DNA of 32,613 nucleotides from positions 1-32,613 of the IMG/VR virus record IMGVR_UViG_3300024262_000142; one strand, written 5' to 3'. The notes beneath the pieces were generated by a model. It saw only the letters and a program-made list of their open reading frames with translations, ran no database searches and was not told where the DNA came from. Numbering within the stretch: position 1 is the stretch's first letter; each line of letters begins with the position of its first letter. Source of the DNA: a virus. Of the stretch, positions 1,847 to 32,341 are shown one piece after another. A program made the position numbers and the translations under genes.

Positions 1847-3958
1847 ATGAAATTTATAGATACCTTATTATATATAGAGTTCCAGGAACTGGTAAACATA
1901 GGAATTTCATCCAATACACTATTTAAGGCACGTGAAAGAAATTCATCTTCTTGGACCTTCATTGACAATCCTAATGATCAGCGCCGGGTACTGATCGAGT
2001 ACGAATCCATGAAGCCGCAATACAAGGACCTGGTTATCCGTAAGCTTTGCGGGGGCCTCGATCCTTACGCCTTCCTGGCAACTTCGATCATAAGCCGGCA
2101 GCTTATTTCAAAGGTATCCGACTCTGAATTTTTCGAGAAACAGGATATAAAATATAGTACGCGCGCGCGCGCGATAGAAGCCTGCCGGTACCTGCATCTT
2201 CTTGAGCGCTGCCGGCTGTCAAGTCAGAAAAAGCAAACCTTCCCGATGTGGAACACCCAGGAGTTCTGGAATAACCTCACTGCTCACATTAAAGGTAATC
2301 CCTCGTTAAGAGAAAAGAACGGTATAAACCTGCCGACCGTTAAGCCCCGGCTCAATCACATGGCAAAACTATATATCAGGCGCGGACCCGGGGTGATCCT
2401 TAACGGACGTATTAAAAACAAAAATGCCAGCAAGCTTGGCAAATGCCTGGCCCCGGAGGGATCCTCAAGACAACACACCGACTTTGACGAAGATACATAT
2501 CGCACCCAGTTAGCTGTTCTCACCGAACTCCGGGCTCATCCCAATAACCTGGACTTTGTTCAGATCTCTGATCATTATAACCAGGTGGCCGCAGCATCTA
2601 ACTGGCCATCGCTAACAAACATGCAGGTAATGAACATTCTGAAGGATCCCGCCATCGACCTGGTAACCACTCCGGGGAGGAAAGGAAGGAATGCCTTTAT
2701 GAATGAGAAAGCGATCCAGGCCAGGCGCCGTCCCCCGTCGGCGCCGCTGCGGCTTGTTACTGTCGACGGCTGGGATGTGGAACTGGCATACCAGGAGATG
2801 GTACCGGACCGTAATGGTCACATGCATACCCGGTATGATAACCGGCTGACTGTAGTAATCGTGCTGGATCCTTTTATGAAATACCCGCTGGGAATTGTTA
2901 TTGACAATAACGAAAATGCAGACCTGATCAGAGCAGCATTTAAAAATGCGTTTGATCATGTTTACGAACAAACAGGACACTATATTGCCCCTTATCAGAT
3001 ACAATCTGACCATTATGCTATAAAGGATCTTGGTCCCTTCTACGCATCTATTTCTCGCATGCACACACCCGCGCGGGTGGGAAACGCGAAAGCCAAGGTT
3101 ATAGAGCCATATTTTAAATATCTCAACAAGAAATACTGCCAGTTGCTTAATAACTGGACAGGCTTTGGCATAAAGAGCCGGAGGGAAAACCAGCCGAACA
3201 TTGAGCTAAAGAACAAAATCAAAAAGCAATTCCCGGACCGTATGGGCGTGATCATGCAAATAGAAGAGATAATAGCATCAGAACGCCAGGTTAAGGCACA
3301 GCAGTATTTCATGGCACTTAATAAAGCCGAACAGAGACTCATGGATCGCAGGGATTACCTGCGGGCCATGGGGACAGTAAGGGAAAAGACAATTAAAGCC
3401 GGCGGCAAGGGTATGCTGATGCAGGTTAACGGAACCGGTTATGTATATGACAGCCTCGATATAGCTTTTCGTAAACATCTTACACGTGACTGGAGGGTGA
3501 CCTATGATCCGGAAAACCTTTCATCAATCCTTGTTGAAGATGATGACGGCAGGATCTCCTTTGTCCTGGAAGAAAAATACGTACAGCCGATGGCTATCGC
3601 TGATCAGACCCCGGAGGACAGGGAGCAGCTTAAAGCGCTCAGGCAATCGAACGAGGCAATCATCGAGGAGGTAGTTGAAGCAGGCATTGAACGCCGGCAG
3701 ATAATTGAAGAGCATATCTCATCAAATGAATCCCTGTCAGAGCATCGTCAAAAATTAATGTTCACTTACGATGGACAACAAAAGGATCCTCTCCAGGAGG
3801 CCAAGGGCAAGATGCTTCCCAGGGAGAAGGAAAAGAAAGAAATTGCAGCAAGTACAAAATCATTAAAAGAACGCGAGGAACAAATCGAAGATGAGGATTG
3901 GTGGGAACGACAGGAAAGGAGCCTGACCTCACGTATTGACATTTCAAAATACTTATAA
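1847..3958 (+). CDS. Mu A-like DDE transposase
   Basis: A 703-residue transposase, close to MuA in size, that would cut and join the phage ends during integration and replicative transposition. The catalytic RNase H-like core carries Asp307 in LVTVDGWD, Asp388 in YQIQSDHY and Glu420 in NAKAKVIEPYF, a complete DDE triad with MuA-like spacing. The N-terminal 200 residues hold helical DNA-binding regions. The C-terminal 150 residues are highly charged (EEKEIA, EREEQIEDEDWW), as expected for contacts with the target-selection ATPase encoded next. A 14-bp alternating CG tract lies within the coding sequence at 2160-2173. The ATG is preceded by an end-repeat copy at 1815-1838. Confidence 0.93.
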   Translation: MKFIDTLLYIEFQELVNIGISSNTLFKARERNSSSWTFIDNPNDQRRVLIEYESMKPQYKDLVIRKLCGGLDPYAFLATSIISRQLISKVSDSEFFEKQDIKYSTRARAIEACRYLHLLERCRLSSQKKQTFPMWNTQEFWNNLTAHIKGNPSLREKNGINLPTVKPRLNHMAKLYIRRGPGVILNGRIKNKNASKLGKCLAPEGSSRQHTDFDEDTYRTQLAVLTELRAHPNNLDFVQISDHYNQVAAASNWPSLTNMQVMNILKDPAIDLVTTPGRKGRNAFMNEKAIQARRRPPSAPLRLVTVDGWDVELAYQEMVPDRNGHMHTRYDNRLTVVIVLDPFMKYPLGIVIDNNENADLIRAAFKNAFDHVYEQTGHYIAPYQIQSDHYAIKDLGPFYASISRMHTPARVGNAKAKVIEPYFKYLNKKYCQLLNNWTGFGIKSRRENQPNIELKNKIKKQFPDRMGVIMQIEEIIASERQVKAQQYFMALNKAEQRLMDRRDYLRAMGTVREKTIKAGGKGMLMQVNGTGYVYDSLDIAFRKHLTRDWRVTYDPENLSSILVEDDDGRISFVLEEKYVQPMAIADQTPEDREQLKALRQSNEAIIEEVVEAGIERRQIIEEHISSNESLSEHRQKLMFTYDGQQKDPLQEAKGKMLPREKEKKEIAASTKSLKEREEQIEDEDWWERQERSLTSRIDISKYL

Positions 3959-3992: not shown

Positions 3993-4913
3993 ATGAAAGA
4001 CGAACTAAAAAAATCAATAGTAGAAGCTGCAAAAAGCTACATGGAAGATAAAAGGATTTCCCTTAATGAACATGCCAGGCGTAGTGATATCAATTCTGCA
4101 TACCTGAGCCAGATGATAAATAACAAGGGAGATGGTATTGCTGACAAGTGGTATTATGCCCTGGCAAAAAGCGTGGGATTCGAGCTCGATATAATTTACT
4201 GGGAGCATGTTAACACACCGCAGTATATATCTATAATGGCTCATCTCGAAGAGGCTCGCGAATTAGCCCGAAACCGTATACTCATCTGCGATACAGGAAG
4301 CGGGAAAACTTACGCTGTTAAACGCTATTTAATGACCAATCCCCAGGATACATGCCTTATTACCATAAGCTCACTGCATACTATACATACACTCATTGAT
4401 GACATCATGGACGATATCGGGTTGGAGCCATGCGGCACGCCGGTCACCAGGCTGCGCAACATAGCCCACCGGTTAAGCATGTTCCAGCTCGAGGGCCGAA
4501 AGCCGCTTATCATTATTGACGAATGTGAGAACATGAAAACAAGCGCCTTCGGGGTGATCAAGAGCTTGTATGACCAGCTCGAAGGGGTATGCCCTATCGT
4601 GCTTATAGGTACCTCTCAGATCGAGGCTAAGATCGCAAATATGCTAAAGCTCAATAGGGTTGGCCTTCCTCAATTTCACAGAAGGTTCAAGGCCGGCATG
4701 CGTTACCTGCCACCGGTAGATAAGACTTTCAGGCTATTCCTTGAAAACAAAGTGGAAGATAACAGGCTAAAGGCTTACCTGCAGCGTATATGCAACAACT
4801 ATGGTGAGCTCCATGATTACCTCGAGCTGGCCCTCAAGGAAGCAGACCGCCTGGGAGTTGAGCTCACTTACAGCTTCTTTCTTGATCTGCACGGGATAAA
4901 AATAAAGAACTGA
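3993..4913 (+). CDS. Mu B-like AAA+ ATPase for target selection
   Basis: A 306-residue AAA+ ATPase immediately after the transposase, the position of MuB. Residues 10-70 form an N-terminal helix-turn-helix (SLNEHARRSDINSAYLSQMI) as in MuB. Walker A is CDTGSGKT at 99-106, lacking the usual first glycine. Walker B is PLIIIDECEN at 171-180, followed by a sensor-1-like VLIGTSQ. In Mu this protein binds DNA as an ATP filament, delivers target DNA to the transposase and confers target immunity; the same role is inferred here. The stop codon overlaps the next ATG by one base, showing translational coupling. Confidence 0.88.
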   Translation: MKDELKKSIVEAAKSYMEDKRISLNEHARRSDINSAYLSQMINNKGDGIADKWYYALAKSVGFELDIIYWEHVNTPQYISIMAHLEEARELARNRILICDTGSGKTYAVKRYLMTNPQDTCLITISSLHTIHTLIDDIMDDIGLEPCGTPVTRLRNIAHRLSMFQLEGRKPLIIIDECENMKTSAFGVIKSLYDQLEGVCPIVLIGTSQIEAKIANMLKLNRVGLPQFHRRFKAGMRYLPPVDKTFRLFLENKVEDNRLKAYLQRICNNYGELHDYLELALKEADRLGVELTYSFFLDLHGIKIKN

Positions 4914-9697: not shown

Positions 9698-9976
9698 ATG
9701 CCGACCAATAAAGAAATAATGCTCGCTTATGAAGAGCAATTTAACACCGGGAAGCTGTTCACGGAAACCCATGTCCTGGTACTCATGGGCTACGCACGGG
9801 GCGAGGCCCGGAAGGAGCTGATGAAGAAGCTCCCGACACCGGAGAACGTGGAGCTGGAGATAATAGATAACTATTATCCCACATATGGCAACCAGCTTGA
9901 TAATGCTCACGTGAGGGAGGGATTAAGGCTGGGATCGAAGTTTGTCATTGACTGGATTAAAAGATTATGGATTTAA
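9698..9976 (+). CDS. Protein of unknown function whose 3' end is duplicated downstream
   Basis: A 92-residue protein of no recognised family. Its last codons (LGSKFVIDWIKRLWI) lie in a 43-bp sequence that recurs with one mismatch at 10890-10932, where it would end LGSKFVIDWIKRLWA just across the start of the HNH gene. The gene thus seems once to have run directly into the HNH gene before the two SSGFGF genes were placed between them. The present 3' end is intact. Confidence 0.6.
   Translation: MPTNKEIMLAYEEQFNTGKLFTETHVLVLMGYARGEARKELMKKLPTPENVELEIIDNYYPTYGNQLDNAHVREGLRLGSKFVIDWIKRLWI
9928..9970 (+). repeat. 43-bp direct repeat, copy 1
   Basis: Starts GCTGGGATCGAAGTTTGT and ends AAAAGATTATGG. 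It matches 10890-10932 at 42 of 43 positions; 9946 is C, the other copy has T. It flanks the SSGFGF gene pair on the left. Confidence 0.85.
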
Positions 9977-9986
9977 AATAAAAATT

Positions 9987-10445
9987 ATGTCAGAAGTAAA
10001 AGTTACAAAAGAAACAGCAAAGAAGCTCTATGATTCAGTCCTAGACTTTTTCAAAGAGCAGCTCGAGGCAGCCTTTGGCAAGGATGCCTTCAGAAAGATT
10101 GATTTCCGGGATATCAAAACCTTTCCGGATGCCTGCAAAGCATTGGATATTAATCCGAATGCAGGTTGGAATAATTACGATACCATAGATGAAGCAGCTT
10201 ATAAGAAGCTGAAAGTAATTACCAAGGCAATTAACCAGGACTGGATCCCGGACTGGAATAGCACAAACCAGAAGAAGTGGTTTCCCTGGTTTCGTCTTTC
10301 GTCCGGTTTCGGGTTCGTTGGTTCGGATTACAACTGCGATTACTCGCGTACGGATGTCGGTTCGCGCCTTTGCTTTGAATCGGAAGAGAAGGCGGATTAT
10401 GCAGGGAAGCAGTTCACTGCGATATATGAGGAGTTCCTAATATAA
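9987..10445 (+). CDS. SSGFGF-family phage protein, paralog 1
   Basis: A 152-residue protein; the ATG at 9987 after an A/T-rich leader is preferred to an in-frame ATG at 9942 that would overlap the preceding gene. The conserved C-terminal half reads PDWNS..KKWFPWF, LSSGFGFVGSDYNCDYS, VGSRLCF and AGKQFTAIYEEFL. I know this pattern as recurrent in Bacteroidota phages, function unknown. The next gene is a paralog, and the two are very alike at DNA level across the SSGFGF block while differing in scattered residues between it and VGSRLC. The gene lies between the 43-bp direct repeats. Confidence 0.7.
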   Translation: MSEVKVTKETAKKLYDSVLDFFKEQLEAAFGKDAFRKIDFRDIKTFPDACKALDINPNAGWNNYDTIDEAAYKKLKVITKAINQDWIPDWNSTNQKKWFPWFRLSSGFGFVGSDYNCDYSRTDVGSRLCFESEEKADYAGKQFTAIYEEFLI

Positions 10446-10456
10446 AAATTTATACC

Positions 10457-10864
10457 ATGACAAAAGAGACCAGTAAATCTACTACAGAGGAGTTCGATTA
10501 TAAATCGATCAAGACCTTTGAAGATGCCTGTAAGAAGACAGGCATTGAAACTACAGAGCCTGAAATAAAGGCTGCTCACATCGAGCCGGTAAAAGCAATG
10601 ATTGCTTATTACAAGCTTGTGATAATATTCCTGGCCATTAACAACGGATGGAAACCAGACTGGAGCGATCATAACCAATGGAAGTATTATCCCTGGTTCT
10701 ATGTTCTTTCGTCCGGTTTCGGGTTCGGTGGTTCGTTTTGCAGCTGCGATCACTCGTGTACGCTTGTCGGTTCGCGCCTTTGCACAGATACAGGAGAAAA
10801 GGCCGAATACATAGCCGAACAGTTTAAGGACCTCTACCAAGAGTATCTCCTGTATTCAGAATAG
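10457..10864 (+). CDS. SSGFGF-family phage protein, paralog 2
   Basis: A 135-residue paralog of the preceding gene: PDWSDHNQWKYYPWF, LSSGFGFGGSFCSCDHS, VGSRLC and AEQFKDLYQEYLL align with it. The N-terminal halves are diverged. At DNA level the block around CTTTCGTCCGGTTTCGGGTT is nearly identical in both, whereas codons between it and GTCGGTTCGCGCCTTTGC differ at several non-synonymous places. No function is known; a binding role for the variable loop is a guess. It is 11 bp downstream of its paralog. Confidence 0.7.
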   Translation: MTKETSKSTTEEFDYKSIKTFEDACKKTGIETTEPEIKAAHIEPVKAMIAYYKLVIIFLAINNGWKPDWSDHNQWKYYPWFYVLSSGFGFGGSFCSCDHSCTLVGSRLCTDTGEKAEYIAEQFKDLYQEYLLYSE

Positions 10865-18493: not shown

Positions 18494-19567
18494 ATGGAAA
18501 CCAGGTATTCAAAAATAGTGGCGAGAGAAATCCAGCAGGCCGAAGTTGCTATTTATGGCGAGATCGGCAAAGATATTAATGGCGATTACCTTGCCAGGGA
18601 GATCAATTACCTGGGCAAAACAGCCGACATCATAATCATCCGGATAAACTCTCTTGGAGGAAGCCTGGTACAGGGACTTTCAATTGTCGGAGCCATTGTG
18701 GCATCACCGGCAAAAACTATATCGATCATCGAGGGCATTGCCGGCAGCATGTCAGGTGTTATAGCGATGAGCTGCAATAGGATAAAGATGAACGACTTTG
18801 CCAGGATCATGCTTCACAACCCATATTTTGCTGATGACAACGGGGATGAAATAAAGAAACTCTCCGATGCTGACAAAGAGGCCCTGAGAAATTTTAAGGG
18901 ACAGATATCCGAACTTCTTTCGAGACGCGGCAAAAATAAAAAAGAGATTGACGGGATATTAAAAAAAGATACCTGGTATAAAGCTGAAGAGGCTCTTTCG
19001 GCAGGATTCGTCGATGAGATAATTGATACCGGTGTTGACAAAGGATCTGTGTCCGGACTCACTATTGAAAAGCTCGTGGCATTTTCCAATAATAAATTTT
19101 TACCAACCAATACAGATATGAAGAAAATTGCAGCTAAACTCGGTTTGCCTGAGACCGCAGACGAACAGGCAATCTTAACAGCGCTTGACCAGAAGGATAC
19201 CTCCCTGGCCGATTCCAGGAAGAAGCTGGTTGATGCTGTTATTGCCGCCGGAAAGAAGAGCGGCACCATTAATGACACTAATGTTGCAAGCATGACAAAG
19301 CTCGGCAATACCGATATTGACCTGCTTGTGGATCTTGTTATCAAACCCGTGGAGGGCAATGATAATACCCGCCTGAGCGATGTTCTCGCGAAGGTGGATG
19401 CAGCTCTTGAAGGGATCAAAAATCCGGATAAAGATAAGGATGAAAAGGACTGGGATCATTACCAGAAAAATGATCCGGATGCTCTTGTAGTAATGAAGGT
19501 TAAAGAACCCGAGAAATTCAAGAAGATCTATAAGGACTTCTGGGGTGAGGAATGGGACGGTAAATAA
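18494..19567 (+). CDS. ClpP-like (S14) prohead protease with C-terminal scaffold domain
   Basis: A 357-residue protein. Residues 15-180 form a ClpP-type serine protease: INSLGGSLVQGLSI, Ser85 in GIAGSMSGVIA, His108 in MLHNPY and Asp159 in LKKDTWYKAEEA. Residues 208-357 (AAKLGLPETADEQAILTAL and following) are helical and charged like Mu gpI/Z scaffold. Mu makes its scaffold from an in-frame internal start; here an ATG at 19118 could do likewise. It matures the prohead before packaging. First gene of the rightward late operon, 72 bp after the dyad operator. Confidence 0.88.
   Translation: METRYSKIVAREIQQAEVAIYGEIGKDINGDYLAREINYLGKTADIIIIRINSLGGSLVQGLSIVGAIVASPAKTISIIEGIAGSMSGVIAMSCNRIKMNDFARIMLHNPYFADDNGDEIKKLSDADKEALRNFKGQISELLSRRGKNKKEIDGILKKDTWYKAEEALSAGFVDEIIDTGVDKGSVSGLTIEKLVAFSNNKFLPTNTDMKKIAAKLGLPETADEQAILTALDQKDTSLADSRKKLVDAVIAAGKKSGTINDTNVASMTKLGNTDIDLLVDLVIKPVEGNDNTRLSDVLAKVDAALEGIKNPDKDKDEKDWDHYQKNDPDALVVMKVKEPEKFKKIYKDFWGEEWDGK
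19118..19567 (+). CDS. Possible internal-start scaffold protein (nested)
   Basis: In-frame ATG at 19118 after an A/T-rich stretch (CCAATACAGATATG) would yield the C-terminal 149 residues of the protease gene, beginning MKKIAAKLGLPETADEQAIL. In Mu, gene Z (scaffold) is nested in gene I in this way. Inferred from that precedent; no direct proof of initiation here. Confidence 0.4.
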   Translation: MKKIAAKLGLPETADEQAILTALDQKDTSLADSRKKLVDAVIAAGKKSGTINDTNVASMTKLGNTDIDLLVDLVIKPVEGNDNTRLSDVLAKVDAALEGIKNPDKDKDEKDWDHYQKNDPDALVVMKVKEPEKFKKIYKDFWGEEWDGK

Positions 19568-25866: not shown

Positions 25867-27936
25867 ATGGCATACGGTGTCAAATATCGGGTTGAATATA
25901 AAGACCAGGTTGAGGTTCTGAAGAAAATCGATATAGAGGAGTTGGATTATTCCGGTTCTGTTACCGATTGTGTGCCGGGTGAGGATCCCCTTGAAATTGA
26001 GATGCCGGCACTATCCACAGTTTTTGATCCTGTCATTGCCCTGGGAGCTTCTATCAGAATGATTTCAACATCAAATATGATGTTCCTGGGACTCCATACT
26101 TCAAATCCTAAAAAGTACCGCACCAGGATATACGAAGGGACCGCTTCTGATCCCTTCTGGCTTGGTTATATAAATACTGAGGTATTTAATGAGCCGTATT
26201 CCATGCTTGAGGACTATGAAGTATCAATAACCTGCAATGATGGTTTCGCCATCCTGGAGCGTTTTAAATATCTTGATGGCGGGAATAAATATTCCGGATT
26301 AGACACTAAATGGAGCATACTGCAGAAGATACTGACAGTATTAGAATTACCATATAAATACCTGTTCTTTGCATGTGAACATACACCTGACGACGTTTCG
26401 ATCGGATCGTCGGAAACATTATTCCACCAGCTGAAAGTTGACCAGGCAAATTACTACGATGAGAGTGACGAAGCCATGACGTGTCTCGAAGTACTTAAAG
26501 GTTTGCTTGCAGCATATCCTTTGCAGATACGGTGGCATGATGGATCACTTTATATTTATGATCCGTCGATGCTGGCAGACGCGTCGTTTAATGCAAAGAA
26601 ATTTGATAATACCGGTACATTCATCGAATCGGTAGTAATTACAAGGAACCTTGATATTTCTAATAATGATTGTGAATGGGATTCAGATGATCAGGCAATC
26701 GACATGATCGCCGGGAATTCCAGACAAAAAATAAGGTTCTCTCCCTATGCCTATGAAAGGGCTGTTCCATATACGGATATAACTGATGAAGATAATTGGA
26801 GCGGTACTGGAGTGTGGACCAAAGAACAGCATCCGACGAAAGAATATATTTATACATATTATCTTACGGGTATATCTGGAGTATCGGGTTTCATATTAGG
26901 TACTCTCGGAAGTCTAAGCGGGAGAAAATCTGAGCCTGAAAGTACACCAGATATATATATTAAAGGCACATATGGAAATGGGGCAAATCCCGGGAATTTG
27001 TTTTTCCAAAATGATACTTCGGGGATATGGGTGTCGGGAGTTTCAGGCTCTTCCATTTTATTCAAAGCAAAAGTATTTGTTCGGACAAAAGACTGGGAAT
27101 ATGATAATGTCCTAGATGATGGATATATAGTAAAAGGTTTATATTTCAAAATAGCCGTGGAAGTTGGAGGTAAACGTCCGTATGCAGAAGATCCCAGATC
27201 ATCGTATACCTGGATTGAGAGTACAACATTATTCTTTTATAAGAGAGTAAGTGATCAGGGCAAGGATATAGCAGACCAGTGGGTGGATGTAGAATTCCAA
27301 TTCCCCTGGAATTTTCCTGGAGGCGAGGTAGTTTTTAAGGTATATGATGATTTCAAGGCTTATGATGATATATTCAAAACATGGAATGATGATCCTCTGA
27401 CAACCCAGGTAAAAGAGGTTCGTTTTAAAGATATTGAATGGGAGATAATTGATGTTGAGGATCCAGGAGAAGGAGGAAGGATAGGGATGGATTATGACAC
27501 CGCGGCACTTAACGATAAAGAATATACCGGGAAAATAAACGAGGATTTCACCGAAGAAGCACCCGAAATTACGCTTATTCATGCAGACGGAATTGATATA
27601 GCTGATCGGGGAGCTCTGTATAAAATTGATAAATCATATACCTCCGGCTGGCGTAAACCGGGAGACTCAACGAGCTGCCTGCTGGTTGAAATATTACTCC
27701 GGACAATCATAAGTCAATACCGGGATAGTCTCATTCAACTTTCAGGCACATTAACCGCAAGCAATATGCTTACCGGCACTGGTTGCCTGGGATTTTTCAA
27801 TACAATCCAGGATACTGATTATTTAAGTACCAAGAAATTGATATGTATTCAAGGAGTATATAATGATTTTAAACGAACGTTAAATGGGACATTCCTGGAA
27901 ATTAAACAGGACGATTTAAGTATAGTTATAGAATGA
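25867..27936 (+). CDS. Tail tip / distal tail hub protein
   Basis: A 689-residue protein following the tape measure. The N terminus (YGVKYRVEYKDQVEVLKKID, then GSVTDCVPGEDPLEIEM) resembles distal tail or hub proteins of Bacteroidota siphoviruses; the middle contains aromatic and acidic receptor-facing loops. No enzymatic motif is evident. It overlaps the collagen-like gene by four bases. Confidence 0.7.
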   Translation: MAYGVKYRVEYKDQVEVLKKIDIEELDYSGSVTDCVPGEDPLEIEMPALSTVFDPVIALGASIRMISTSNMMFLGLHTSNPKKYRTRIYEGTASDPFWLGYINTEVFNEPYSMLEDYEVSITCNDGFAILERFKYLDGGNKYSGLDTKWSILQKILTVLELPYKYLFFACEHTPDDVSIGSSETLFHQLKVDQANYYDESDEAMTCLEVLKGLLAAYPLQIRWHDGSLYIYDPSMLADASFNAKKFDNTGTFIESVVITRNLDISNNDCEWDSDDQAIDMIAGNSRQKIRFSPYAYERAVPYTDITDEDNWSGTGVWTKEQHPTKEYIYTYYLTGISGVSGFILGTLGSLSGRKSEPESTPDIYIKGTYGNGANPGNLFFQNDTSGIWVSGVSGSSILFKAKVFVRTKDWEYDNVLDDGYIVKGLYFKIAVEVGGKRPYAEDPRSSYTWIESTTLFFYKRVSDQGKDIADQWVDVEFQFPWNFPGGEVVFKVYDDFKAYDDIFKTWNDDPLTTQVKEVRFKDIEWEIIDVEDPGEGGRIGMDYDTAALNDKEYTGKINEDFTEEAPEITLIHADGIDIADRGALYKIDKSYTSGWRKPGDSTSCLLVEILLRTIISQYRDSLIQLSGTLTASNMLTGTGCLGFFNTIQDTDYLSTKKLICIQGVYNDFKRTLNGTFLEIKQDDLSIVIE

Positions 27937-28499
27937 GCCAGGTAAATATATCATCAAAGCAAGTATACCGTCGCCGGCGTGATAAACAGATCGTTCAGGC
28001 TACGGGATCGGTTATTGCAGCATATTCAAATACTCCATATCCGGGACCTCAAGGGCCTCAGGGATACCAGGGAGGAGAAGGTGATCCTGGAATGCCGGGG
28101 GAGACGGGTTTCCAGGGCCCTCAGGGATATCAGGGTGATCAGGGATACAGAGGATATCAGGGTAGTCCGGGGCCCCAGGGAATGCAGGGTGATCAGGGAT
28201 ATCGGGGATATCAGGGTTATCAGGGATACCAGGGAGGAGAAGGTGATCCTGGAATGCCGGGGGATCAGGGCCCGCAGGGCACGCAAGGTAATAAGGGTGA
28301 TCAGGGATACAGGGGATATCAGGGTAGTCCGGGGCCCCAGGGATGGCAGGGTGATCAGGGATACAGGGGATATCAGGGTTACAGGGGATATCAGGGTTAT
28401 CAGGGATACCAGGGTGCCCAAGGCACAATTAATGTTTCTTCAGGTACTGCAAATCCTTCCGGAGGTAGTAATGGCGATGTTTATTTTCAATATGAATAA
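27933..28499 (+). CDS. Collagen-like tail fibre protein
   Basis: A 188-residue protein: a short N-terminal anchor (SQVNISSKQVYRRRRDKQIV) then about 125 residues of uninterrupted Gly-x-y triplets in which Gln, Tyr, Asp and Pro dominate (GYQGDQGYRGYQGSPGPQG), then a short C-terminal cap. The triplets should form a trimeric triple-helical rod. The DNA shows a 162-bp (18-triplet) tandem duplication. It is coupled by four bases to the tail tip gene, so it is a side or tip fibre. Confidence 0.85.
   Translation: MSQVNISSKQVYRRRRDKQIVQATGSVIAAYSNTPYPGPQGPQGYQGGEGDPGMPGETGFQGPQGYQGDQGYRGYQGSPGPQGMQGDQGYRGYQGYQGYQGGEGDPGMPGDQGPQGTQGNKGDQGYRGYQGSPGPQGWQGDQGYRGYQGYRGYQGYQGYQGAQGTINVSSGTANPSGGSNGDVYFQYE
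28059..28382 (+). repeat. 162-bp tandem duplication in the collagen-like gene
   Basis: Unit 28059-28220 is repeated at 28221-28382. A 44-bp run is identical at 28059-28102 and 28221-28264, and a 48-bp run (28134-28181 versus 28296-28343) differs at one base. The portion in between has diverged. A unit of exactly 18 Gly-x-y triplets keeps the frame and fibre register. Confidence 0.8.
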
Positions 28500-28948
28500 T
28501 GGCTAAAAAAACATGGATAAAGGTAGGTGGTATCTGGAAAGAAGTGAAAGCCATATGGATGAAAGTGGGTGGTGTATGGGAAAAATGGATTATATCATGG
28601 AGAAAGGTAGGTGGTGTATGGGAGCAGTGCATTATTGCTCCTAAAATAGTTGCCGATCCTGCTAATTTATGGCTTGATTGGACAGCTCTTGATTATAGCG
28701 ATTATACAGACGTGGACGTATATCCCGAAGATATGGCAACTACAATTACAGAAATTGATACAGGTGATGGAACTAATTGGGCAGAAGCGTTTCCAGATGA
28801 TGGAAATGGAGACTTCTCTTTCAGGGCAAGATCATTATCAGAAAATAACACGGGATCACCTCGTAGTATGATACTTAGAATAAGTGATGATGGATCTGAA
28901 GCTAATGATTTTGATGTAATGCTTCATCAAGAAATGGCACCAATATAA
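28499..28948 (+). CDS. Tail-associated protein with WxKVGGxW repeats and BACON-like domain
   Basis: A 149-residue protein. Residues 1-43 hold three W-x-K-V-G-G-x-W repeats (TWIKVGGIW, IWMKVGGVW, SWRKVGGVW). The rest is beta-rich and ends FSFRARSLSENNTGSPR and FDVMLHQEM, a strand pattern like the BACON fold that binds carbohydrate in Bacteroidota. It starts one base before the collagen-like stop, so it is probably a partner or cap of the fibre. The fold assignment is by eye. Confidence 0.6.
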   Translation: MAKKTWIKVGGIWKEVKAIWMKVGGVWEKWIISWRKVGGVWEQCIIAPKIVADPANLWLDWTALDYSDYTDVDVYPEDMATTITEIDTGDGTNWAEAFPDDGNGDFSFRARSLSENNTGSPRSMILRISDDGSEANDFDVMLHQEMAPI

Positions 28949-28976
28949 TTATTATTAAACATTAAAATTTAATAAA

Positions 28977-30203
28977 ATGAAAATCAGTATTATTACTCCT
29001 ACACACGACACTTCTTTTCTTAAGGAATTAGAAGCAACGATTCTAGCTCAGACCTATACAAACTGGGAATGGATTATTCTGTTAAATAATGGAGCTGATT
29101 ATTTGGCCGAGGATCCTCGAATTAAAATTTTCACATGTCCTTTTCGTAGTAATTCTATTGGTCTGCTGAAAAGATATGCCTGCATGCAGGCAGCGGGGGA
29201 AATTATTGCTGAAGTTGATCATGATGATATGATAACTCCGGATTGTCTCGAAATCCTTGCAGAGGCATTCCTGGATACCGGGGTGGGATTTGTTTATTCG
29301 GATAACGCCACTCTCGATGATAACTTTAAACCTTATGGCAAGGAATATGGATGGAGCTACCGCATGTTTAACTGGAACGGTAAGGATCTTTATGCAATGT
29401 ACACTCAGCCATTATATCCTGGACGGTTTGGTTATATATGGTTTGCCCCGGATCATATCAGGGCATGGCGCAAAGATGTTTATGAAAATATCGGCGGACA
29501 CACCGATACAAAGGACCTATGTGACGATCAGGATCTGATCCATAGATTCTATATGGTTACGAAGTTCAAATATATCCCAAAGGTATTATATATCTACAGG
29601 ATCACTGGTAAAAACTCCTGGCTCCAGCAAAACGAAGCGATCCAGAAACATACTGTCGCAGTATACGATAAGAATATTCTCAACTTGGCTTGTCGTTTTT
29701 CAGAGATTAATAATCTATTAAAAGTAGATTTATGCGGAGCCTTCAACAAGCCGGAAGGATTTATCAGTATAGATATTTATGATGCTGACATTATTACAGA
29801 TCTCGAGAAGGGGATTCCTCTTAAAGATAATTCTGTTGGAGTAATCAGGGCCGTCGATGCCTTAGAACATATTAAAAATCAGCGGTTCCTGATGGAAGAG
29901 ATACATCGGGTTCTTGCTCCCGGAGGAATATTGCTGAGCGAAACACCCTCCACTGATGGCCGTGGAGCATTCCAGGATCCTACCCATGTAAGCTTCTGGA
30001 ATCAGAACTCATTCTGGTACTGGACCAGAAAGGATACGGCAAGATATATACGAAACACTAAAATGTTTCGTGAATGTAAACTAACTACAGGATTCCCAAA
30101 TGAGCACTGTAAGGCAAATAACATTCCATACGTAGTGGCACATCTTGAAAAATTAGAATCGAAGCTTGAGATTAAGTATAAAAAACAGACAAAAAGGAGG
30201 TAA
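28977..30203 (+). CDS. Glycosyltransferase family 2 fused to a SAM methyltransferase-like domain
   Basis: A 408-residue enzyme. Residues 1-230 are a GT-A glycosyltransferase of family 2: ISIITPTHDTSFLKELEATI, acidic metal site EVDHDDMITPDCLE (Asp81, Asp83, Asp84), and CDDQDLIHRFY. Residues 240-370 look like a class I methyltransferase with a degenerate motif I (KVDLCGAFNKPEGF), ISIDIYDADI, DNSVGVIRAVDALEHI and VLAPGGILLSETPS. A cytoplasmic enzyme of this kind inside the tail fibre operon probably decorates a tail fibre or, as alternative, alters host surface glycans. No membrane anchor is seen. Confidence 0.85.
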   Translation: MKISIITPTHDTSFLKELEATILAQTYTNWEWIILLNNGADYLAEDPRIKIFTCPFRSNSIGLLKRYACMQAAGEIIAEVDHDDMITPDCLEILAEAFLDTGVGFVYSDNATLDDNFKPYGKEYGWSYRMFNWNGKDLYAMYTQPLYPGRFGYIWFAPDHIRAWRKDVYENIGGHTDTKDLCDDQDLIHRFYMVTKFKYIPKVLYIYRITGKNSWLQQNEAIQKHTVAVYDKNILNLACRFSEINNLLKVDLCGAFNKPEGFISIDIYDADIITDLEKGIPLKDNSVGVIRAVDALEHIKNQRFLMEEIHRVLAPGGILLSETPSTDGRGAFQDPTHVSFWNQNSFWYWTRKDTARYIRNTKMFRECKLTTGFPNEHCKANNIPYVVAHLEKLESKLEIKYKKQTKRR

Positions 30204-30206
30204 GAA

Positions 30207-30542
30207 ATGGAAGCCTATAATGTTCAGCCCGCCGAAGTGGACATTTATGTTTATGCCGGCGATACTATTGATATGGATTTCGAAGTCGATCTTAATGGTG
30301 AAGATGAATCACTAACGGGATCCGAATTGACAGGAAAAATAAAAAAGATGGACGGAAGCATTTTAAGAGATCTTCCCGCAGATGCATTACCGATCGATGA
30401 CGATTCATTCAGTCTTGTCACAGAACCCATTGCCACTGTAGGCATATATAAATATGATATAATAAGGACAGAGGAAGAAGTTGTCAACATACTTATGAAA
30501 GGTAAATTTCATGTAATGGAAAGACAAACTCCAGGTGAATAA
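30207..30542 (+). CDS. Small tail protein with BppU-like N-terminal domain
   Basis: A 111-residue protein whose YVYAGDTIDMDFEVDLNGED, LTGKIKKMDGSIL and GIYKYDIIRTEEEV segments resemble the beta-sandwich N-terminal domain of upper baseplate proteins (DUF2479-like). It may link fibres to the tail tip. It ends 44 bp before the next gene. Confidence 0.55.
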   Translation: MEAYNVQPAEVDIYVYAGDTIDMDFEVDLNGEDESLTGSELTGKIKKMDGSILRDLPADALPIDDDSFSLVTEPIATVGIYKYDIIRTEEEVVNILMKGKFHVMERQTPGE

Positions 30543-30586: not shown

Positions 30587-31456
30587 ATGCCCCCCCCCAG
30601 TGAATATAAGGCAATACATGTAAATCCCAGGGCCTATTCTGTCAACGCAACGGAAAAGGCTTATGTAATGTCTTTTACTTCTAAGAAGGCCTATTCCTTT
30701 AGTGCAACAGAACAGGCTTTTTCAATGTCTTTTACTTCACCGGAATACACTGCTTCAAGATTCACACGGCCTACTTCTTTCACTGCTTCCAATCCAATTA
30801 TTGACAATTCAATATATGCTCCGGGAGCATCAATTATATGCTTTATCGATGTCACTAATTTCGGGGCGAATGGTGAAAAGGAATTGTTCTGGGAGGTTGT
30901 GAATGAAGGTGAGGAAGTGTTGTCATCAGGATCCCAGATGTCAGGAATAATCAATAAGTGGGATACAGAGACAATTAGCTTATCAGGAATATATGTCCCC
31001 GACAATTATCAGTATTTCCATGTACGTTTTAAAATAGAAGAAACTGGTGATTGGCTTTACAGTACATGGGCTCATTCATTGCCTGTTGACCTTACAGTCA
31101 CATCAGTTAATTCTGGAAGCGATATTTATTGGCCGGACACGGCTATTGATTGTTATGTGCATGTCACAAATGCTGGTTTTGCTGGTAGCCAGATGATAGA
31201 ATGGCAAGTAATAAATGTTGATAATTCCGAAATTTTAAACAGCGGTTCTCAAAGCTCCGGAACAATAGCAGACTTTGGATCAGCAGATGTTTCTTTAACT
31301 GGAATTGTATCACCTTCTGGTGGGGATATAAAGTTCAAAGTACGATCAAGAATAGTTGGTTCTTCAACATGGATATATAGTTTTCAGATGACCAACTACT
31401 TATATTGGACACCTCCGGAGAATCCACCGCCCAGAGATCCACCGCCACCACCATAA
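30587..31456 (+). CDS. Putative tail fibre/adhesin with two Ig-like repeats and a C9 tract at the start
   Basis: A 289-residue protein beginning MPPPSEYKAI. Residues 17-62 contain a short repeated unit (NATEKAYVMSFTSKKAY, SATEQAFSMSFTSPEY). Two CARDB/Ig-like beta domains follow, at about 70-165 and 166-275, each with an APGASIICFIDVTN- or WPDTAIDCYVHVTN-type strand and a repeated SGSQMSGII/SGSQSSGTI segment. It ends in a proline-rich tail (PPENPPPRDPPPPP). The nine C directly after ATG put the gene at risk of frame switching: C8 or C10 closes the frame within 12 codons. A receptor-binding or decoration role is likely by position and fold. Confidence 0.65.
   Translation: MPPPSEYKAIHVNPRAYSVNATEKAYVMSFTSKKAYSFSATEQAFSMSFTSPEYTASRFTRPTSFTASNPIIDNSIYAPGASIICFIDVTNFGANGEKELFWEVVNEGEEVLSSGSQMSGIINKWDTETISLSGIYVPDNYQYFHVRFKIEETGDWLYSTWAHSLPVDLTVTSVNSGSDIYWPDTAIDCYVHVTNAGFAGSQMIEWQVINVDNSEILNSGSQSSGTIADFGSADVSLTGIVSPSGGDIKFKVRSRIVGSSTWIYSFQMTNYLYWTPPENPPPRDPPPPP
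30590..30598 (+). repeat. C9 homopolymer right after a start codon
   Basis: Reads ATG CCC CCC CCC AGT GAA. A single-base change in tract length would stop translation early: C8 gives a stop 11 codons on, and C10 gives CAG TGA at once. Confidence 0.9.
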
Positions 31457-31478: not shown

Positions 31479-31781
31479 ATGGAATATTTAAAAGTACGCA
31501 TTTTGAAACCCCACTGGATGTTTCCTTATCCACTGGGCAGTATAGTAACTCTTGAAGAGGAAGATGCTACTATGCTTATTAATGATGGTTGTGCCAGGCT
31601 TGCGGGTGAAGTGCCAGCGGATCCGGATCCAAGGACAATGGAAGCCCCTGAAGAGGTTATTGAGAGTGACAGCAAAAAAGAAAAATGGTGGAAGAGGCTA
31701 TTCAGATATTTGCGGCAGCAAAGAGCAAGACTGTCTGCGTGGCTCATTAAAGGACTCCAAGAATACGCGGACGAGTTATAA
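31479..31781 (+). CDS. Small protein of unknown function near the right end
   Basis: A 100-residue protein: beta-rich N-terminal half (YLKVRILKPHWMFPYPLGSI), Pro/Glu linker, and an amphipathic basic C-terminal helix (KWWKRLFRYLRQQRARLSAW) that may bind membrane or DNA. Its stop overlaps the start of the sigma factor gene by one base. No family is recognised; it could be a partner or regulator of the sigma factor, but no anti-sigma signature is seen. Confidence 0.55.
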   Translation: MEYLKVRILKPHWMFPYPLGSIVTLEEEDATMLINDGCARLAGEVPADPDPRTMEAPEEVIESDSKKEKWWKRLFRYLRQQRARLSAWLIKGLQEYADEL

Positions 31782-32341
31782 TGAGCGACATTGATCTTGT
31801 AAACGGATTGATAAAACAGGATGTAAAAGCACAATGTCATCTATATAATAAATGGTATTGGTATTTATACGCTATTGCTTTCGGTATCTTAAAGAATCAT
31901 ATGGATACTGAAGATGTGTTACAGGAGAGCTTTCTTAAAATATATAAGAACATCAACTCATTCACACCTGGCAAATCCCTGAAAGCATGGATGGCTGTGA
32001 TAGTAAAGCACACGGCATTAACTCATATTATCCTTAACAGGAAGTATAATAATCACGAAGAGTTTAATGGTTATGAGCCTTTACAGATAAGAGCAGCGAG
32101 TTTTATTGATTCGATGGAAGCCCGGGAAGTCATTAATAAAGCAATGAAGGCCTTGCAAAGGAAATCACCTAATCAGTATATGTATACCCGGTTATATTTT
32201 ATTGAAGGTATGAACACTAAGGAAATATCAAATGATATTGGTGTCCCGGAAGGTACATGTAAAAGTCAGGTTTCAAGAGGGCGTAAGACTATTCAATCAA
32301 TTATTACTGATTATGATAATATAAAATTTTTTAACAATTAG
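31781..32341 (+). CDS. ECF-type RNA polymerase sigma factor
   Basis: A 186-residue sigma factor. Region 2: YLYAIAFGILKNHMDTEDVL, QESFLKIYKNINSF and KSLKAWMAVIVKHTALTHI. Region 4: ALQRKSPNQYMYTRLYFIEG, MNTKEISNDIGVPEGTCKSQ and VSRGRKTIQSI, with the helix-turn-helix that reads -35 boxes. Regions 1.1 and 3 are missing, as in ECF factors. It is the last gene of the rightward late operon, an unusual cargo for a Mu-like phage. It may switch host RNA polymerase to phage late promoters or alter host transcription in the lysogen; it is not evident which. Confidence 0.88.
   Translation: MSDIDLVNGLIKQDVKAQCHLYNKWYWYLYAIAFGILKNHMDTEDVLQESFLKIYKNINSFTPGKSLKAWMAVIVKHTALTHIILNRKYNNHEEFNGYEPLQIRAASFIDSMEAREVINKAMKALQRKSPNQYMYTRLYFIEGMNTKEISNDIGVPEGTCKSQVSRGRKTIQSIITDYDNIKFFNN

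Follow-up and report, generated by a model that had tools for sequence, protein, structure and literature searches.

The 408-amino-acid (aa) enzyme described here, encoded in the late tail operon of a Mu-like phage, probably glycosylates the phage's own collagen-bearing tail fibre and O-methylates the transferred sugar. The phage is carried by a virus record of IMG/VR (IMGVR_UViG_3300024262_000142), whose entire 32,613 bases are referred to as the window, and its host probably belongs to the Bacteroidota. The enzyme joins a glycosyltransferase family 2 (GT2) domain to a methyltransferase (MT) domain. A first-pass annotation of the window had proposed that the phage decorates its own fibre or, alternatively, alters host surface glycans. 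The collagen-bearing fibre is now the better supported candidate substrate because linkage to collagen-like genes holds across the enzyme family, in bacteria as well as in phages. Together with the co-location of hydroxylase genes in phages, this constitutes strong indirect support for fibre decoration, and the host-glycan option is weakened. The features on which the argument depends are as follows.

25867..27936, + strand: tail protein of 689 aa, hub-like by position, directly upstream of the fibre gene
27933..28499, + strand: collagen-like tail fibre of 188 aa, the proposed substrate
28499..28948, + strand: 149-aa protein between the fibre and enzyme genes, a possible fibre tip or accessory protein
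28977..30203, + strand: GT2-class I methyltransferase fusion enzyme of 408 aa (PF00535 and PF08241 over cutoff)
28986..29489, + strand: GT2 domain of the enzyme, residues 4-171, with the metal/nucleotide-sugar motif VDHDD at residues 80-84
29718..30152, + strand: methyltransferase domain of the enzyme, approximately residues 248-392, with motif I DLCGAF

The two-domain enzyme named in the first-pass annotation is real. It occupies the open reading frame (ORF) 28977-30203, lies among tail genes inside the + strand late operon and, as had been said, follows the fibre by two genes, with the 149-aa gene intervening; the span 27933-30203, previously taken as a single feature, covers three genes. 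Pfam matches exceed their cutoffs for both Glycos_transf_2 (PF00535, residues 4-171, E 3.7e-11, 43.7 bits versus a cutoff of 23.3) and Methyltransf_11 (PF08241, residues 273-320, E 2e-8, 35.2 bits versus 21.2), the latter match being limited to the C-terminal half of the profile (positions 48-94 of 95). The AlphaFold2 model of the enzyme is confident, with a predicted local distance difference test score (pLDDT) of 87.8 and a predicted template modelling score (pTM) of 0.87, and its glycosyltransferase (GT) half has a GT-A fold that matches K4CP best, as well as WrtF, SpsA and TarS. The combination of this fold with a DxD-type motif places the half in GT family 2, and across 142 relatives the residues D81, D83, D84, H160, R162 and D184 are invariant or nearly so. 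The same holds in the MT half for S325-R329 (STDGR) and Q333-P335 (QDP). Sequence and model thus confirm the enzyme as a fusion of a GT2 with a class I methyltransferase, both activities being predicted. Motif I of the MT half, for which the pattern DxGxG is expected, reads DLCGA in the window, DLCGG in the closest kin and DIGGG in most of the family, where C replaces the first glycine in 13 of 142 members and A the third in 31 of 142. Given this reading of motif I, methyl transfer by the window enzyme is likely but not certain.

A chance fusion is excluded, because the enzyme recurs at full length, with invariant catalytic-type residues, in many viral stretches and at 66 bacterial loci. It represents a full-length family without a name. 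Uncultivated phages often carry relatives, and the best 80 of 175 candidate stretches were kept (43-58% identity); the sole cultured phage found with one is cyanophage S-CRM01, at 49% identity.

A survey of fibre and enzyme gene co-occurrence, which the first-pass annotation had named as a check, finds collagen at 49 of 66 bacterial and 24 of 80 phage enzyme loci. The bacterial set was obtained by scanning genomes with the enzyme alignment, blind to collagen, which returned 66 near-full-length relatives; flanks were fetched up to 10 kb and a collagen-like block was defined as 10 or more G-X-Y triplets. All 49 blocks lie within 5 kb of the enzyme and 43 of them within 2 kb, and among loci whose flanks span 2 kb or more in each direction, 22 of 33 have collagen within 2 kb. 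In reading these counts, some loci share one genome and contig ends cut many flanks; distances are from tblastn coordinates, long-ORF calling being unreliable in high-GC actinobacterial loci, where several enzymes went uncalled. The same search also gave 14 loci that matched only by a stand-alone MT domain, and none of them has collagen (0 of 14 versus 49 of 66, Fisher p 2e-7). The lineages with relatives include Bacteroidota, Chlorobiales, Planctomycetes, Actinobacteria, Deltaproteobacteria and Anaerolineae, along with Thiothrix and other Gammaproteobacteria and an Alphaproteobacterium, and some loci are plainly chromosomal, such as the Thiothrix locus adjoining a DNA polymerase III-like gene. 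Collagen is conserved between loci, whereas the other neighbours are not. In several Actinobacteria (L236, L240, L244, L247 and L253) the collagen block lies ~0.5 kb downstream on the opposite strand, and because it is convergent the linkage there is not through one operon. In a Mucilaginibacter and a Chlorobiales genome (L208:7828-9960 and L229:8393-9982) the linked collagen protein runs into kelch-like repeats and follows a giant protein of 2600-2800 aa; this chromosomal version of the system has no tie to a tail. A count across Bacteroidota genomes, with the enzyme in 2 of 395 (both already-known loci) and collagen in 46 of 395, is uninformative on co-occurrence.

The phage loci were compared with control loci. 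Collagen is present at 24 of 80 enzyme loci, at 1 of 78 neck-gene loci from T4-like phages without the enzyme and at none of 37 loci from related Mu-like phages; with one representative per cluster, the figures are 14 of 48 and 1 of 78 (p 4e-6). In comparison with shuffled genes, the enzyme lies closer to the collagen gene within phage loci (p 2e-4), and a collagen-bearing gene is directly upstream of the enzyme in L002 (with a 4-bp overlap), L017, L028, L032, L036, L037, L051 and L066. At the level of whole records PF01391 occurs in 29 of 43 that carry the enzyme, a figure that by itself cannot tell linkage from a general abundance of collagen in aquatic phages, cause from habitat; for this reason the matched neck-gene loci, the distance shuffles and the bacterial loci were used, and the reading by abundance was rejected.

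The nearest enzymes to that of the window are those of L200 (68%), L201 (63%) and L002 (58%), all three beside collagen tail genes, and with L202 they form one clade with it (98% in the Shimodaira-Hasegawa-like approximate likelihood ratio test, SH-aLRT). In the tail operons of L200 and L002 the collagen repeat is part of the tail protein, whose gene is directly followed by that of the enzyme; in L201 the collagen protein is two genes upstream of the enzyme, and in L202 the upstream neighbour is another GT2 gene. Since the pair stays together across divergent Bacteroidota phages and the window's nearest phage kin have neither gene, these patterns suggest that collagen and enzyme have been exchanged as a unit. 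Neither PF01391 nor PF00535 occurs in any of the 21 related phage records, and on this count we rejected the idea of the enzyme as a host-derived passenger common to the window's phage group.

The proposed substrate contains 43 G-X-Y triplets, matches PF01391 (E 9.7e-21) as well as PHROG tail fibre families, and with at least 10 consecutive triplets and a Pfam match it counts as collagen-like; by homology its product is a virion fibre. The 689-aa tail protein encoded before it is 57% identical to that of L083 and 37% to that of L084, two related Mu-like phages where this tail gene overlaps, in like manner, the gene of a long fibre after it (797 and 526 aa); in the window the stop of the tail gene overlaps the start of the fibre gene by 4 bp. 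The first 32 residues of the window fibre resemble the N-termini of these long fibres (0 of 5000 shuffles score as high). Because both the N-terminus and the position after the tail gene match, the collagen gene is most likely the phage's own fibre with an exchanged shaft. The N-terminal half of the 689-aa protein also resembles the collagen tail protein of L002 (1283 aa) over the N-terminal part of the latter (26% identity, E 1e-19).

How would the enzyme act on such a fibre? As a virion-decorating enzyme of the late tail operon, it would use its GT-A domain late in infection to move a sugar from a host nucleotide-sugar onto the newly made collagen-bearing fibre (27933-28499), or onto a glycan already primed on it, and the C-terminal domain, dependent on S-adenosylmethionine, would then O-methylate the transferred sugar. 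The linkage points to the collagen-bearing protein as the acceptor, and collagen-like proteins of bacteria and phages may be the partners with which the family evolved; we also infer the order of the steps and the methylation of the transferred sugar itself. Any benefit might lie in shaft stability, protease resistance, adsorption, recognition or evasion. The repeat of the window fibre has Gln at 63% of Y positions and Tyr at 37% of X positions. Gln at Y is the one residue found throughout the linked sets, bacterial and viral, where it never falls below 13%, and it is enriched over enzyme-free Bacteroidota collagens (p 0.003 and 0.016, uncorrected and with short control loci), which gives a weak hint that it may point to the acceptor. 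An attempt to read the acceptor from repeat composition was abandoned, no classical residue being universal among the linked collagens.

In many phages the enzyme has further partners. Oxygenases of the 2-oxoglutarate (2OG) and iron type (2OG-FeII_Oxy_3) occur in 23 of 48 phage enzyme clusters against 2 of 78 controls, DUF6445 in 39 of 48 against 0 of 78, and another GT2 in 25 of 48 against 0 of 78. T4-like phages usually have the collagen fibre genes first, then between one and three genes for 2OG-Fe(II) oxygenases, a GT2 gene (in many cases DUF6445-fused) and last the fusion enzyme, while L017 and L028 have three collagen genes, the fusion enzyme, DUF6445, a 2OG oxygenase and more glyco-enzymes. 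A match in L017 to GT25, the animal COLGALT family, fell below the Pfam cutoff (E 0.006) and was not used. The DUF6445 alignment retains HxD...H...R and its model (pLDDT 92.9) matches OGFOD1 and PHD2, which have 2OG prolyl-hydroxylase folds; the domain, found at L055:7347-7928 and in 38 other phage clusters, is thus predicted to be a 2OG-Fe(II) oxygenase near PHD2/OGFOD1. In these phages the hydroxylases and the second GT2 would hydroxylate and prime the substrate. It is possible, and we propose it tentatively, that prokaryotes and phages share a mobile collagen-modification system of 2OG hydroxylases, DUF6445 oxygenases, GT2s and the GT2-methyltransferase fusion, which would hydroxylate, glycosylate and methyl-cap fibres.

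Several observations weigh against fibre decoration. The flanks fetched for 34 of 48 phage clusters hold no collagen gene, many of these flanks being incomplete; one T4-like clade, where the enzyme is surrounded by GTs, DUF6445 and a mutase-like gene, has no collagen within 8 kb; and the S-CRM01 enzyme gene is ~50 kb away from the collagen genes of that phage. No hydroxylase, DUF6445 or second-GT2 partner was matched in the window, so its phage would depend on the single fusion enzyme and on host sugar nucleotides. Motif I of the window enzyme deviates from its expected pattern, as described above. Among the linked collagens, those of L003, L208 and L210 are almost devoid of Ser/Thr and those of L209, L211 and L218 have virtually no Pro, and therefore no single classical acceptor residue fits all repeats.

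If not the G-X-Y repeat, what might the enzyme modify? One hypothesis is that during infection it alters a glycan of the host surface, either O-antigen or capsule, perhaps to block superinfection, and that it lies near the fibre only since both belong to a variable host-interaction region. This is the usual reading of glycosyltransferases that phages encode in hypervariable regions for host recognition (PMC7029224), and some relatives do sit among other GTs without collagen nearby, with a GT2 as the upstream neighbour in L202. However, this hypothesis leaves unexplained both the collagen linkage in bacterial chromosomes of several phyla and the peptide-hydroxylase-type oxygenases, and the window enzyme gene sits inside a late tail operon, so that we regard it as unlikely. 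An alternative hypothesis is that another virion protein is decorated (the 149-aa or 289-aa tail protein, or the non-collagen head of the fibre). The Ser/Thr- and Pro-poor repeats, which leave no common classical acceptor, and the 149-aa gene adjoining the enzyme in place of the collagen gene would fit this, but only collagen is conserved among locus neighbours while the others vary, which makes the hypothesis quite improbable. It is very doubtful that the MT half is degenerate in the window phage, leaving glycosyl transfer alone, or that the gene is a passenger: motif I and a low-confidence model loop (330-336) speak for decay, but C and A at these motif I positions occur elsewhere in the family, the kin read DLCGG, and the remaining MT domain, including STDGR and QDP, is invariant or nearly so.

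Decoration of the fibre would have partial precedents. Bacillus BclA glycans include O-methylated sugars. BclA is an exosporium glycoprotein that forms a collagen-like filament with oligosaccharide on its collagen region (cited in PMC9614988); it is likened here by description only, its enzymes coming from separate genes and its setting being a bacterial spore, not a phage. In C. difficile the gene for the GT-A enzyme SgtA is immediately upstream of bclA3, and SgtA O-GlcNAcylates Thr in the BclA3 collagen repeats in vitro (PMC7157674). The phage enzyme shares with this system a GT-A domain gene beside a collagen-like gene, but SgtA serves a spore coat and combines its GT with tetratricopeptide repeats (TPR) in place of a methyltransferase domain, whereas the phage enzyme ends in a methyltransferase and has no TPR. 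The second GT2 of the phage module (L055:6198-7301, with a weak TPR match) resembles SgtA when compared by layout alone. Mimivirus L230, a collagen lysyl hydroxylase-glucosyltransferase (PMC9614988, PMC9546862), is likewise a virus-encoded modifier of the virus's own collagen-like protein and couples hydroxylation to glycosylation. It differs in fusing a hydroxylase to the GT, whereas the phage enzyme fuses GT and methyltransferase without a 2OG domain and the hydroxylases of the phage module are separate genes, none of them matched in the window. Gene 90 of S-CRM01 is a full-length homologue, annotated only as methyltransferase / glycosyl transferase, in a phage that also encodes collagen-like proteins; it differs in its surroundings, which are small genes and genes of host metabolism. 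The chondroitin polymerase K4CP (2z86) is the best match of the window GT2 domain in sequence and fold, but it is a polymerase with two GT domains and no methyltransferase, and an inference of substrate from it is unwarranted.

Two things are already known, then: the glycosylation of a bacterial collagen-like protein by a GT encoded next to it (SgtA/BclA3) and the hydroxylation and glycosylation of collagen by a virus (L230). We found no description of the collagen-linked GT2-methyltransferase family and its oxygenase module in the open-licence literature. Phages and bacteria alike commonly carry collagen-like fibres, yet modification of these is known in few cases; according to a review, most prokaryotic collagens are without glycosylation or hydroxylation (PMC8968730). 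As a sequence marker, the family would flag loci of probable collagen modification in many lineages; if the present reading is true, it would represent a prokaryotic counterpart of collagen glycosylation. The shared mobile system, if true, would be an undescribed equivalent, in function, of the processing of animal collagens. The family also points to a role for the 2OG oxygenases that viruses encode near tail genes, the use that viruses make of prolyl 4-hydroxylase being termed 'cryptic' in a survey of the Baltic (PMC9301287), and it links DUF6445 to the 2OG oxygenase fold. Cultured test cases are phage S-CRM01, Mucilaginibacter flavidus, Thiothrix eikelboomii and Saccharopolyspora flava.

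The remaining genes place the operon in its phage. A Mu-type transposase and a Mu-like order of protease and capsid genes identify a Mu-like transposable phage, in which the tail operon follows the protease gene on the + strand.

1847-3958: transposase (phrog_310, E 4.9e-28)
3993-4913: TniB-like ATPase
18494-19567: Clp/Mu-like protease
30207..30542, + strand: small structural-type gene of 111 aa, 3' of the enzyme (phrog_1084, function unknown, E 2.5e-6)
30587..31456, + strand: probable tail or baseplate accessory protein of 289 aa (no Pfam family; tail-operon position)

The start of the 149-aa gene overlaps the fibre stop by 1 bp, and the enzyme gene starts 28 bp after it. Its product has a weak BACON match below the Pfam cutoff and matches phrog_25859 (function unknown, E 2.7e-6). 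The N-terminus of this protein carries three near-repeats W.KVGG.W(E/K), and this WxKVGGxW-type motif recurs at the end of long tail proteins of L138. Tandem proteins at 9942-10445 and 10457-10864, whose coding ends are 77% identical DNA, end in SSGFGF.GS...GSRLC and resemble targets of diversity-generating retroelements; the window shows no evident reverse transcriptase ORF, and in the close relative L084 (16656-18708) a reverse transcriptase (PF00078, 3.9e-19) adjoins the same two proteins. The right side of the phage is closed by an extracytoplasmic function (ECF)-type sigma factor at 31781-32341 (PF04542, 4.8e-12; phrog_1740), and a sigma factor as the final gene is unusual for a Mu-like phage.

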